A stretch of 64,000 bases of DNA, from assembly GCA_015486075.1 (NCBI GenBank), contig WFSG01000041.1, positions 1 through 64,000 of the forward strand. The letters run 5' to 3'. The notes beneath the pieces were generated by a model. The model did not search any database. It was not told the DNA's origin and was given only the letters and a program-made list of their open reading frames with translations. Below are positions 5,511 through 30,137 of this stretch, in pieces. This DNA is from Deltaproteobacteria bacterium. Its GTDB lineage: Bacteria > Desulfobacterota > Desulfomonilia > UBA1062. A program made the translations under genes and the position numbers. Position 1 is the stretch's first letter; each line of letters begins with the position of its first letter.

Positions 5511-5580
5511 ATACCTCTGTTATGGTATTTGGGAGTTTCTTTTTTACTTACTTTAGCTATGTTTATTGGAGACTGAAGAC

Positions 5581-5682
5581 ATGCCCATAGGCTTATCCTT
5601 GGGTAAGAAAAAGGAGGCCATGGGCGCCATGGCCTCCTTTTTTATTGCAGGTATACTATTTCTCTCAAGGGGTTTGTCATGA
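5581..5682 (+). CDS. Putative 33-residue leader ORF coupled to iorA
   Basis: An ATG at 5581 follows GGAGA (5568-5572) with eight bases of spacing. It opens a 33-codon frame whose TGA overlaps the iorA ATG as ATGA. The predicted peptide starts MPIGLSLGKKKEAM, then has a hydrophobic stretch ASFFIAGILFL, so it resembles a tiny membrane peptide. An intrinsic-terminator hairpin (5608-5643) lies inside codons 10-21, so translation of this frame would compete with terminator folding. It may be a regulatory leader, a real small protein, or chance. The good ribosome-binding site and the exact stop/start overlap argue for translation. Confidence 0.4.
   Translation: MPIGLSLGKKKEAMGAMASFFIAGILFLSRGLS
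5608..5643 (+). terminator. Strong intrinsic terminator just before iorA
   Basis: Arms GGAGGCCATGG (5613-5623) and CCATGGCCTCC (5627-5637) pair perfectly with a three-base loop. Flanking A5 and T6 tracts extend the stem to about 16 pairs and give a U-run on the plus strand. It ends 35 bases before the iorA ATG. It could end emrB transcripts, or act as an attenuator if transcription starts at the promoter near 5483. Confidence 0.75.
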
Positions 5683-7406
5683 AGAAGATATTAAGTGGGA
5701 ACGAGGCAATAGCAAGGGGAGCCATGGAGTCTGGGGTCAGGTTTGCCTCTGCTTACCCTGGTACACCTAGCACAGAGATTCTTGAGACCATAGCAAGAGA
5801 ATTCCCCGAGATCCATGCAGAGTGGACGCCCAATGAAAAGGTTGCCCTAGAGGTCGCAGCAGGTGCATCATATGCAGGTGCAAGGGCATTGGCGGCCATG
5901 AAGCACGTGGGCGTGAACGTGGCCGCAGACCCCCTCATGACACTGCCGTACACCTTGATAAGGGGCGGGCTAGTACTAGTGAGCGCAGATGATCCTGAGC
6001 TGTTCTCGTCGCAGAACGAGCAGGATAACCGCAATTATGCAAGATTTGCGAAGATACCTATGCTGGAGCCCTCATCATCGGAGGAGGCAAAGGACTTTGT
6101 TAAGACGGCCTATAGGCTAAGCGAGGAATTCTCGACCCCTGTGATGCTCCGTACCACGACACGCATATCACATTCAAAAGGCATTGTGGAACTGGAAGAA
6201 CCAGAAGATCCACCTAGAGCATCCCTTGAGAGGCATCCCGTGGAATGGGTGATGCTGCCTGCAAATGCCAGGATAAGGCACCCAGTCGTTGAGGAGAGGC
6301 TCAATAGGCTTAAAGATTATTCCAATAGCTCAGAGTACAATGTCATGGAGATAAACGATGCATCTTTGGGTATTATAGCTTCGGGGGCTGCTTACCAATA
6401 TGCAAAGGAGGCCTTTCCAGACGCGTCATTTTTGAAACTAGGACTCTCCTATCCTCTGCCAGATGTGCTTGTGCGTGAATTTGCTGCAAAGGTAAAGGAG
6501 CTCTGGGTGGTGGAAGAGCTAGATCCCTTTATAGAAAGACAGGTAAAGGAACTTGGTATAGATTGCCACGGAAAGGATCGCATACCCATGTGCGGTGAAC
6601 TAAATCCAGACATTGTAAAGAAGGCTATCTCGGGTAGTGTGAACACTGGATCAAGCTCTCTAAAGCTTCCTGCTCGGCCGCCGAACATGTGCCCTGGGTG
6701 TCCTCATAGGGGCATGCTGTGGGCATTAAAGAAAAACAAGTGCTTTATTGCAGGTGATATCGGGTGCTACACCCTGGGTTTTCTGCCACCGCTTGATGCG
6801 ATAGATACCTGCCTTTGCATGGGAGCAGGGATAAACCATGCCCATGGCATGTCAAAGGTTCTAGATGGTGGCAAGAAGAAAATAGCAGCCGTCATAGGCG
6901 ACTCCACGTTTTTCCATTCAGGTATGACCGGCCTATTGAACTTGGCCTACAACAAGGGTATTGCCCTCGTGGTTATACTGGACAACAGGACCACGGCAAT
7001 GACAGGCGCTCAAGATCACCCTGGTACCGGCATTGCCCTTGATGGATCTAAAAACATAGAGATAGACTTGGAGGCCTTGGTTAAAGCCCTTGGCATAGAT
7101 TGGGTTAAGAGGGTTGATCCATACGACGTGGACACGACTAGGCAAAAGGTCAAGGAGGCCTTGGAACAGGAAGGCCCCGCTGTAATCATATCCTCTGCAC
7201 CGTGTGTGCTTTTGCCTTCCAGAAGGGTGTCAGGGGTGCCACTTAAGGTAGATTCCGATAAATGTACGGGTTGCAAGGTTTGCTTGGGCATTGGTTGTCC
7301 TTCCATAGAGTTTAAGGATAAAAAGGCTATTATACTGGATACCTGTACTGGTTGCGGAATATGCAAGGCAATATGCCCATTCGATGCTATTGGGGGTGAT
7401 GTATGA
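5679..7406 (+). CDS. iorA: Indolepyruvate:ferredoxin oxidoreductase alpha subunit
   Basis: This 575-residue subunit carries thiamine pyrophosphate and iron-sulfur clusters of the enzyme that converts aryl-pyruvates plus CoA to aryl-acetyl-CoA, CO2 and reduced ferredoxin. The N-terminal pyrimidine-binding domain contains SAYPGTPSTEI. A mid-protein CPGCPHRG motif (about 340) comes next. The TPP-binding region has GDSTFFHSGMTGL, and two ferredoxin-like cysteine groups lie at about 529-540 and 556-566. The first group (CTGCKVCLGIGC) has the atypical spacing usual in IorA. It overlaps iorB by four bases. The gene context (PaaK, ACT, Liv transporter) points to aromatic amino-acid oxidation or the reverse synthesis. 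Confidence 0.95.
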   Translation: MKKILSGNEAIARGAMESGVRFASAYPGTPSTEILETIAREFPEIHAEWTPNEKVALEVAAGASYAGARALAAMKHVGVNVAADPLMTLPYTLIRGGLVLVSADDPELFSSQNEQDNRNYARFAKIPMLEPSSSEEAKDFVKTAYRLSEEFSTPVMLRTTTRISHSKGIVELEEPEDPPRASLERHPVEWVMLPANARIRHPVVEERLNRLKDYSNSSEYNVMEINDASLGIIASGAAYQYAKEAFPDASFLKLGLSYPLPDVLVREFAAKVKELWVVEELDPFIERQVKELGIDCHGKDRIPMCGELNPDIVKKAISGSVNTGSSSLKLPARPPNMCPGCPHRGMLWALKKNKCFIAGDIGCYTLGFLPPLDAIDTCLCMGAGINHAHGMSKVLDGGKKKIAAVIGDSTFFHSGMTGLLNLAYNKGIALVVILDNRTTAMTGAQDHPGTGIALDGSKNIEIDLEALVKALGIDWVKRVDPYDVDTTRQKVKEALEQEGPAVIISSAPCVLLPSRRVSGVPLKVDSDKCTGCKVCLGIGCPSIEFKDKKAIILDTCTGCGICKAICPFDAIGGDV

Positions 7407-26809: not shown

Positions 26810-28384
26810 TTACAGGATTACCTGCTGTACCGAGATTATGTTGGGTATATCTTCCAGCTTTTGAATTACCTTGTCCGGCACCTCTGAATCCAGGTTTATA
26901 ATTATAATGGCAGTACCCTGCTCCCTATCTCGGCCCAAGAAGAGGCGGGCTATGTTTATATCTGCATCACCGAGCACTATGCCTATGTTACCCACCGTGC
27001 CGGGGAGATCCCTGTTATATATGACCAACATGTTCCTTTCAGGGATTACTTCTATTGGGTAGTTGTCTATCTTTACTATCCTTAGGTCGTGGGGTTTAAA
27101 AAGGGAGCCGGCCATGGTTCTTGTGCCGGAATCCAGGTCGACCTGGACTTCTATCATGTTAGAATAGGTCTCTGTCTTTGAAGACTTGGACTCAACCACG
27201 TCTATACCCCTTTCTTTTGCTATGAATGGGGCATTTACGTTGTTTACATCACTTACCATGGCAGAGAATATGCCCTTTAGTAAGGAGACCGTAACTGGAG
27301 ATGCCTCGAGTTCTGCAATGTCTCCGCTATAACTGACGTTTATTCTCTTGATCCTGCCTGTGAATACCTGACCTGCAAACACTCCCATCTTCTCTGCCAA
27401 CTCTGCATAGGGCATTACCCTAGGTAGTACCTCTGGTGCTACAGATGGGGCGTTTAGCGCGTTTGCTATTACACCTTTCTTGAGATAATCTATGATCTGA
27501 TGTGCCACTGCAACAGCCACGTTTTCCTGTGCCTCTTCAGTGGATGCACCGAGATGGGGTGTGCATATAACCTTTGGATGCTTTACAAGTGTCCAGTCAT
27601 CGGGTGGTTCCTTCTCATACACGTCTATGGCAGCCCCTGCCACCTTTCCAGAGTCAATAGCCTCAATAAGGGCGTCATTGTCTATGAGTGGGCCTCTTGC
27701 ACAGTTTATAATCATGACTCCGTCCTTCATCTTCTCGAAGGCTTCCTTGTTTATTATGCCCCTTGTCTCCTTCGTGAGCGGTGTATGTATGGTTATGTAA
27801 TCAGATCTGGTATAGATCTCGTCTAGCTCAACTATCTCTACACCCATTTTCTCGGCAACTTCTTTTGATATAAAGGGGTCATATGCTATCACGTTCATCT
27901 TAAAACCCTGGGCCCTGGATGCAACAATAGATCCTACTCTGCCCATACCTATAATACCAAGTGTCTTGTTGAAGACTTCCCTACCCGAGAACTTTTTCTT
28001 TTCCCACTTTTCTGCCTTCATGGATGCAACTGCCTGGGGTATGTTTCTGGTCAGGGCCATCATCATGGCTATAGTATGCTCACCCGTTGTTATGGAATTA
28101 CCGCCGGGCGTGTTCATGACAAGTATTCCGCGTTTACTAGCGGCTGGTATGTCTATGTTATCTACGCCTATGCCTGCCCTGCCTATTGCTTTTAGCTTGG
28201 TGGCCTTCTCTATTACATCTGGAGTGACCTTTGTTGCAGATCTCACTACAAGTGCATCATAATCACCGATTATCTTTTTCAGCTCTTCCTTGTCTAGACC
28301 TGTCTTTACGTCAACATCCAGACCACCTTGCCTTAAGATTTCAACCCCTTTCTCCGAGAGCTTGTCGCTAACTAGTACTTTCAA
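26810..28384 (-). CDS. serA: D-3-phosphoglycerate dehydrogenase
   Basis: This 524-residue enzyme starts serine synthesis by oxidising 3-phosphoglycerate. It shows the long form of the family: catalytic and NAD-binding domains (GMGRVGSIVASRAQGF near 148, INCARGPLIDNDAL, and the catalytic HLGASTEEAQ), then an intervening ASB domain, then a C-terminal ACT domain (about 450-524, RDLPGTVGNIGIVLGDADIN). The ACT domain implies serine feedback. The start is TTG (28384) behind AAGGAGG. Upstream is a minus-strand promoter at 28421-28449. Confidence 0.96.
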   Translation of the reverse strand: MKVLVSDKLSEKGVEILRQGGLDVDVKTGLDKEELKKIIGDYDALVVRSATKVTPDVIEKATKLKAIGRAGIGVDNIDIPAASKRGILVMNTPGGNSITTGEHTIAMMMALTRNIPQAVASMKAEKWEKKKFSGREVFNKTLGIIGMGRVGSIVASRAQGFKMNVIAYDPFISKEVAEKMGVEIVELDEIYTRSDYITIHTPLTKETRGIINKEAFEKMKDGVMIINCARGPLIDNDALIEAIDSGKVAGAAIDVYEKEPPDDWTLVKHPKVICTPHLGASTEEAQENVAVAVAHQIIDYLKKGVIANALNAPSVAPEVLPRVMPYAELAEKMGVFAGQVFTGRIKRINVSYSGDIAELEASPVTVSLLKGIFSAMVSDVNNVNAPFIAKERGIDVVESKSSKTETYSNMIEVQVDLDSGTRTMAGSLFKPHDLRIVKIDNYPIEVIPERNMLVIYNRDLPGTVGNIGIVLGDADINIARLFLGRDREQGTAIIIINLDSEVPDKVIQKLEDIPNIISVQQVIL

Positions 28385-28598: not shown

Positions 28599-28626
28599 TT
28601 GACTTTGGTCAATGGATATATATTAT
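28599..28626 (+). promoter_or_regulatory. Candidate promoter of the pectinacetylesterase-family gene
   Basis: TTGACT (28599-28604), 16 bases, and TATTAT (28621-28626) give a start near 28633 and a leader of about 175 bases. This leader contains a short ORF and a long hairpin, described separately. Confidence 0.55.
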
Positions 28627-28694
28627 TAAAATGGTTATTTCTTGTTGATTAACTATGTTATGGCGTCTCTTTTCCACATTGAAGGAGGACAATC

Positions 28695-28730
28695 GTGATC
28701 TATGTGTTGTCTACATACAAAGTAGGCTAG
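28695..28730 (+). CDS. Putative 11-residue leader peptide
   Basis: GAAGGAGG (28681-28688) is followed after six bases by GTG, opening a frame that encodes MIYVLSTYKVG and stops at TAG (28728-28730). The stop lies inside the left arm of the downstream 21-bp hairpin, so a ribosome paused there would block the hairpin. An overlapping frame from ATG at 28702 (MCCLHTK) is less well spaced. Translation is inferred from the ribosome-binding site and position only. Confidence 0.4.
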   Translation: MIYVLSTYKVG

Positions 28731-28787
28731 TTCTGCCCCTGGTGGATCTTTGAGAGTGATACCAGGGGCAGAACTAGCCTAGCCTTT
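28723..28787 (+). terminator. 21-bp hairpin with short U-run (possible attenuator)
   Basis: The left arm (28723-28743) and right arm (28761-28781) are perfectly complementary over 21 bases with a 17-base loop, and the right arm runs into AGCCTTTTG, a four-U run on the plus strand. It is 29 bases before the esterase ATG. No plus-strand gene precedes it for 3.4 kb, so it is unlikely to end an upstream operon. It is better explained as an attenuator or an mRNA-stabilising structure. Confidence 0.6.
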
Positions 28788-28810
28788 TGTAACAAAACAA
28801 GGAGGTAAAG

Positions 28811-30037
28811 ATGAAGCGTTCAACGTATATAAAAATGGCGACCATTTTTCTTGCAACAATCTTAGCTGCTTCGATTTCTTTTGCCAATGATAACTGTTCT
28901 GGCTTCTTGGTTCCGGACATACCAGGTGTATGGACGAAGATAATACCCTCAGAGGTTTATCCGGACTTCGAGTACAATGGTCTGAAACCGGGATGTGCTG
29001 CATGTCCTGGTTGCAACCCGGAGTACTCCTTCTTCGTGAAGGGTGGAGTCAAGGATAATCTGGTTATCTATTTTGAGGGTGGTGGAGCTTGCTGGGATTC
29101 CATGAACTGTCTTTACGTGCCCACGTACACCCAGGAAGTGAATGTAGACGAGGATGCCCTGAACAATTACAAGAGTGGAATCTTTGATACAGATAACCCA
29201 GGTAATCCATTCAAGGGATGGTATTTTGTGTTCATACCGTACTGCACTGGTGACATCCACTGGGGTGCTACGGATACGGTCTACCAGGACTATCTTGATC
29301 AGATTCCAGGCGTAGATAGCTGGACCATTCATCACAGAGGCTTTGTGAATTTCCAGGTGGTTCTAAAGTGGGTAACTGACAATTTCCTGTGGCCAAGAAA
29401 AATATTCGTAACAGGGAGCAGTGCCGGTGGTTACGGTGCGATCATGGCCTTTCCTTACATCAAGCAGGCATTCCCATTTTCCATGGTATATGTGCTTGGT
29501 GACGCAGCAAACGGTGTTATAGGCCAGGATTTCCAGAACAGCTCCATATACAACTGGAATATCCAGATCCCCACATGGATACCTGGTTTCGAAAATGGCT
29601 ATACACCTGACATAACCATGGAAGATGTGTACGTGGATATTGCACGCTATTATCCCTTTAGCAAGCTTTCTCAGTTTTCAACTGCATGGGACTGGAACCA
29701 AACATTTTTCTACTATGTGATGCTGGATCTATATAACCCCGGCGACTGGCAGACAGGTTGGACAAGCGTATGGTGTGACTGGCATAACCAGATGTATACC
29801 TACGTACACGAGACCGCTGACAAGGCTCCCAACTACAGGTATTACATAGGTGCAGGCCAGTACCACACAATAATGGGCTCTCCACAGTTTTATACCGAGA
29901 AGTCGGCAGGAGAACTTTACTCTGAGTGGGTAAGGGCCATGGTAAGGAACCCGTTTGGCGTGTTTGGTGGTCCCCTGCAAGGGAAGTGGAAGAACCTGGA
30001 ATGCAAGGACTGTCAGGATCCTGTCCCTTGCCAGTAG
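28811..30037 (+). CDS. Secreted pectinacetylesterase/Notum-family serine hydrolase
   Basis: This 408-residue protein has a Sec signal peptide (about 1-26, ending ISFA-ND) and the pectinacetylesterase fold: the oxyanion segment YFEGGGACWDSMNC (about 87-100), nucleophile elbow TGSSAGGYGA (Ser about 204), an Asp in LGDAANG, and a His in GAGQYHTIM. Ten or more cysteines, including GCAACPGC and the C-terminal ECKDCQDPVPC, suggest disulfides and an exported location. Substrates in the family are acetyl or acyl esters of polysaccharides or polymers. The bacterial substrate is unknown. Isoleucine codons are more mixed (ATT/ATC/ATA) than in the neighbours, a weak hint of transfer. Confidence 0.8.
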   Translation: MKRSTYIKMATIFLATILAASISFANDNCSGFLVPDIPGVWTKIIPSEVYPDFEYNGLKPGCAACPGCNPEYSFFVKGGVKDNLVIYFEGGGACWDSMNCLYVPTYTQEVNVDEDALNNYKSGIFDTDNPGNPFKGWYFVFIPYCTGDIHWGATDTVYQDYLDQIPGVDSWTIHHRGFVNFQVVLKWVTDNFLWPRKIFVTGSSAGGYGAIMAFPYIKQAFPFSMVYVLGDAANGVIGQDFQNSSIYNWNIQIPTWIPGFENGYTPDITMEDVYVDIARYYPFSKLSQFSTAWDWNQTFFYYVMLDLYNPGDWQTGWTSVWCDWHNQMYTYVHETADKAPNYRYYIGAGQYHTIMGSPQFYTEKSAGELYSEWVRAMVRNPFGVFGGPLQGKWKNLECKDCQDPVPCQ

Positions 30038-30093: not shown

Positions 30094-30137
30094 AAAGGGT
30101 GCCTGCCACTGAAATGAAAGCGTACCAGGCACCCTTT
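30094..30137 (+). terminator. Hairpin terminator after the esterase gene
   Basis: AAAGGGTGCCTG (30094-30105) and CAGGCACCCTTT (30126-30137) form a perfect 12-pair stem with a 20-base loop, 57 bases after the esterase stop. The terminal T-run is short (three), but A-T ends make it symmetrical, so it may stop phoU transcripts from the other side as well. Confidence 0.6.

Follow-up and report, generated by a model that had tools for sequence, protein, structure and literature searches.

A structured 5′ leader with a putative 11-codon reading frame upstream of a secreted esterase gene in a deltaproteobacterial genome

The divergent spacer between a serA-like gene (26810-28384, minus strand) and a secreted esterase gene houses a promoter, a short leader ORF and a perfect 21-bp stem. 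We tentatively favour reading this as a structured 5′ leader of the esterase, transcribed from that promoter and restricted to one genus as far as shown, which may act on translation or mRNA stability and not as an attenuator. Seen more broadly, the element is probably a 5′ leader of an ordinary, lineage-specific kind. The window, meaning the whole 64,000-nt stretch of DNA that was analysed, is part of a 2.3-Mb genome in 49 contigs. In window coordinates, the features of the region are as follows.

28599-28626, plus strand: sigma-70-like promoter TTGACT-16-TATTAT (sequence; GGTNTTGACTTTGG also in the same-genus genome G001)
28682-28688, plus strand: AAGGAGG ribosome-binding site of the leader ORF (sequence)
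28695-28730, plus strand: putative 11-codon leader ORF, GTG start at 28695, MIYVLSTYKVG, UAG at 28728-28730 within the stem (sequence; G001 counterpart ungapped)
28723-28743, plus strand: left arm of the perfect 21-bp stem (inverted-repeat scan)
28744-28760, plus strand: stem loop, 17 nt (inverted-repeat scan)
28761-28781, plus strand: right arm of the 21-bp stem, followed by GCC and then U4 (inverted-repeat scan)
28782-28806, plus strand: weak hairpin, -6.5 kcal/mol, with CCUUUUGU paired to the esterase ribosome site (predicted folding; none predicted in G001)
28811-30037, plus strand: secreted pectinacetylesterase-family (PF03283) hydrolase with a signal-peptide-like N-terminus (Pfam PAE, E 9e-16)

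Most of the anatomy given in a preliminary description of this DNA was found as described: the promoter-like pair, the AGGAGG sequence with a GTG opening MIYVLSTYKVG, the stop codon inside the left arm, the 21-bp stem (confirmed by script) and the esterase ATG 29 nt beyond the stem end. The four U's placed after the stem are present, but they are not adjacent to it, as three nucleotides (GCC) intervene. The same description held that no plus-strand gene lies upstream, and no plausible one was found before 23085. Its assignment of the ORF and stem to the esterase's own 5′ UTR was upheld, with the promoter lying upstream and its -35 element conserved in G001.

The stem is exceptional within the window. 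Its predicted energy is -45.2 kcal/mol, and no perfect inverted repeat in the 64 kb is longer (runners-up 16 and 12 bp); the longest in any of five Markov shuffles of the window was at most 13 bp. The folding z-score of a 90-nt segment was -9.15. Among the 16 window genes preceded by a spacer of 100 nt or more, an SD-led uORF occurred only at the esterase; stems exceeding 7 bp were likewise confined to it, the terminator of an iorA-like gene excepted. No second copy of the stem sequence was found in the genome; a dispersed palindrome of the REP or MITE type was therefore ruled out.

The preliminary description had proposed alignment of the leader with relatives. G001 (L018), a deltaproteobacterial metagenome genome (isolate B14_G9), was the only other same-genus genome compared; its esterase is 88% identical in protein sequence to that of the window. 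The spacer between the serA-like gene and the esterase was heavily gapped in the alignment, yet despite the gaps the -35 element, the SD, an ungapped ORF (MIYMWSTYKGT, then stop) and the position of the UAG were kept. The upper 10 bp of the stem were retained, with core GCCCCTGGTA/TGCCAGGGGC; the lower half was imperfect and absent from the predicted fold of G001. Leaving aside the esterase SD, the hairpin was the best-conserved part of the UTR. Between the two ORFs we counted 12 substitutions in 33 coding bases, distributed 4/4/4 across codon positions, so that no third-position bias was seen. The peptides share 7/11 residues; with the start excluded, 6/10 were identical against a mean of 3.9 under random placement (P about 0.06). 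Conservation of the leader peptide is thus suggestive only. With even substitutions and this P value, the leader ORF is plausible, short of proven. The only exact matches to the nine-residue motif MIYxxSTYK were in the two members of the genus, and clearly homologous leaders appear confined to these two genomes, that is, to one genus as far as shown.

Orthologues of the esterase are sporadic, being present in 7/24 genomes of the family and 26/395 across the phylum. Two of the more distant ones, in G010 (63%) and G194 (61%), have an SD, a start codon and a 12-14-bp GC-rich stem at comparable distance; in both the upstream ORF continues, overlapping or joining the esterase frame. Local-alignment tests gave no significant homology of their leaders to that of the window (G010, p 0.72; G194, p 0.07). 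An apparent shared register of S...K and GCYCCYGG with G010, G194 and the leaders of two further orthologues, L019 and L021, likewise failed these tests. The latter two orthologues (L019 at about 2768-2830, L021 at about 2858-2935) carry a different SD-led short ORF, reading MHLKLPLSRS and stop in one and MKLKIVILRSWKRSVSLLGACC... in the other, which runs into a hairpin GCTCCTG...GGGAGC. Their leaders resembled each other with p 0.003 before any correction for the 36 pairs compared, and the same score was reached by a pair that is evidently spurious. A search for the L021 leader peptide elsewhere returned chance matches only, and a search for the leader family found nothing in viral contigs and only distant pectinacetylesterase-like genes in plasmids.

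In two other orthologues, a riboswitch match lies directly upstream of the gene: c-di-GMP-I at L020 (2235-2352) and c-di-GMP-I-GGC at L026 (1371-1445), suggesting cyclic-dinucleotide control of this secreted hydrolase in other genomes. These riboswitches (RF01051, RF03167) resemble the window leader in being 5′ leaders of the same esterase family, and differ from it in that the window leader has no covariance-model match. No riboswitch was found in the window, where the weak matches were mostly to generic microRNA hairpin models and all sub-threshold. The literature searched contained neither a link between a riboswitch and a pectinacetylesterase nor a description of a leader of this type.

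For the structured leader that we favour, the following course may be envisaged. A ribosome would initiate at the strong AGGAGG site, translate the 11 codons and be released at the UAG; with its footprint there, it would occupy the greater part of the left arm. The very stable stem would re-form between ribosomes. Its effect would most likely be post-transcriptional, slowing ribosomes or nucleases before they reach the esterase ribosome site. That the ORF is translated, at what level the leader acts and whether it answers a signal are matters of inference, and we hold the mechanism with moderate to low certainty. The favoured reading is supported by the observed retention of the -35 element, SD, ORF, UAG and upper stem, the length and z-score of the stem, its uniqueness in the genome, the SD-led uORF not shared by any other of the 16 genes, and the lack of a U tract in G001; the SD, start and stem in G010 and G194 also count in its favour, with the homology not significant. 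Counting against it are the small number of homologous leaders (two), the even substitutions and marginal P value, a lower stem unpredicted in G001, and a pairing of the esterase ribosome site that a modelled ribosome leaves unaffected.

A useful contrast lies in the same window, about 23 kb from the esterase leader, in a region on which the preliminary description was silent.

5522-5642, plus strand: attenuator region before the iorA-like gene (sequence, folding, family comparison)
5522-5590, plus strand: Phe/Tyr-rich leader peptide MVFGSFFFTYFSYVYWRLKTCP, then stop (sequence)
5608-5642, plus strand: iorA terminator with six U's at its 3′ edge (sequence, folding)
5679-7406, plus strand: iorA-like gene (TIGR03336, E 4e-226)

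In this leader GCCCATAGGC, around the leader stop, can pair with GCCATGGGC as an antiterminator. The parts of the attenuator were present in 16 genomes of the family, where the leader peptides are Phe/Tyr-rich (for example ...AYYYCFYFRKGGCP, then stop; that of G011 was unreadable by script), and where GCCCATAGGC and its GGCCATGGGC partner reappear in slightly altered form. Predicted energies across the family were -14 to -24 kcal/mol for the antiterminators and about -20 to -30 kcal/mol for the terminators, which have U tracts. In G022 the pair is changed on both sides (GTCCATAGGCC...GGCCGTGGAC). Judged from these sequence features, the iorA leader is a complete, textbook aromatic-amino-acid attenuator, and as a finding it probably stands on firmer ground than the esterase leader. 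There was no Rfam match to it in the window, and in the literature searched no leader-peptide attenuator was linked to indolepyruvate ferredoxin oxidoreductase.

The esterase leader is without the diagnostic parts that the iorA attenuator displays. The preliminary description had proposed that translation of the leader opens or closes a terminator. An SD-led short ORF that stops in the left arm of a strong stem, with four U's soon after it, would fit such a ribosome-mediated transcription attenuator. A terminator reading, however, requires a U tract and normally also an alternative helix. The U4 is short, begins 3 nt past the stem and has no counterpart in G001, which lacks a U tract. No antiterminator was found in the window or G001 sequence; in the window, upstream sequence folded together with the left arm reached -18.3 kcal/mol at best, far from the energy of the stem itself. 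Nor does the leader ORF contain a regulatory codon run, whereas at iorA U6 abuts the stem and both antiterminator and aromatic codons are present. Terminator scans of the window and G001 called none, but weigh little here because they allowed loops of 3-8 nt only, to which a 17-nt loop is invisible. The trp and phe leaders are ribosome-mediated transcription attenuators. Bacillus bmrCD is reported as another (PMC4191407). The esterase leader shares with these systems an SD-led short ORF just ahead of a stable 5′-UTR stem. It differs in that its relative lacks a U tract and that neither an antiterminator nor a regulatory codon run is present. We consider transcription attenuation distinctly unlikely; a perfect stem plus uORF is insufficient for an attenuator call, as the iorA leader illustrates. 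A classical translational attenuator was not supported either. The erm and cat leaders, which are of this kind, also have a short ORF and hairpin upstream of the regulated gene. Here, the esterase ribosome site lies outside the long stem, is weakly paired with CCUUUUGU in the window, and has a predicted pairing of 0.86 both when free and with a ribosome at the leader stop; stem-dependent hiding of the site was seen in neither the window nor G001. On this modelling, the classical form is therefore unsupported.

The hairpin might instead stabilize or insulate the mRNA, with the 11-codon ORF incidental and non-functional. In favour are a perfect, very stable 5′-UTR stem that is, apart from the esterase SD, the most conserved part of the UTR in G001, and an ORF whose constraint is not significant; yet G001 keeps the SD, start, frame and stop free of gaps, and the esterase is alone among the spacer-headed genes of the window in having an SD-led uORF. 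We regard this as somewhat unlikely, if less so than attenuation. That the inverted repeat works at the DNA level, for instance as a repressor-bound operator, is very improbable: GCCCCTGG is common to both arms in both genomes, but 17 bp separate the arms, which lie downstream of the promoter, extra bases in one G001 arm break the dyad symmetry, and the genome has no other copy. It also seems highly doubtful that a leader peptide of the form M....S.(2-3)K acts as a signal-sensing nascent peptide which, with the stem, replaced a cyclic-dinucleotide riboswitch, with similar uORF-stem leaders accompanying the gene in G010 and G194. Read-through of the UAG was rejected: in the window the frame stays open until shortly before the esterase start, but in G001 it contains stop codons. 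No slippery site for programmed frameshifting was seen.

If functional, the favoured structured leader would control in cis an unstudied, secreted hydrolase of the NOTUM/pectinacetylesterase-like kind in deltaproteobacterial lineages from sediment. Orthologues of this hydrolase in other genomes are preceded by riboswitches of the c-di-GMP-I type. The match of the esterase protein to NOTUM structures was distant and weak (E 0.0023). At the other end of the gene, a 12-bp stem, AAAGGGTGCCTG/CAGGCACCCTTT, occurs right after the coding sequence at 30094-30137 and is likely a 3′ hairpin of the transcript.
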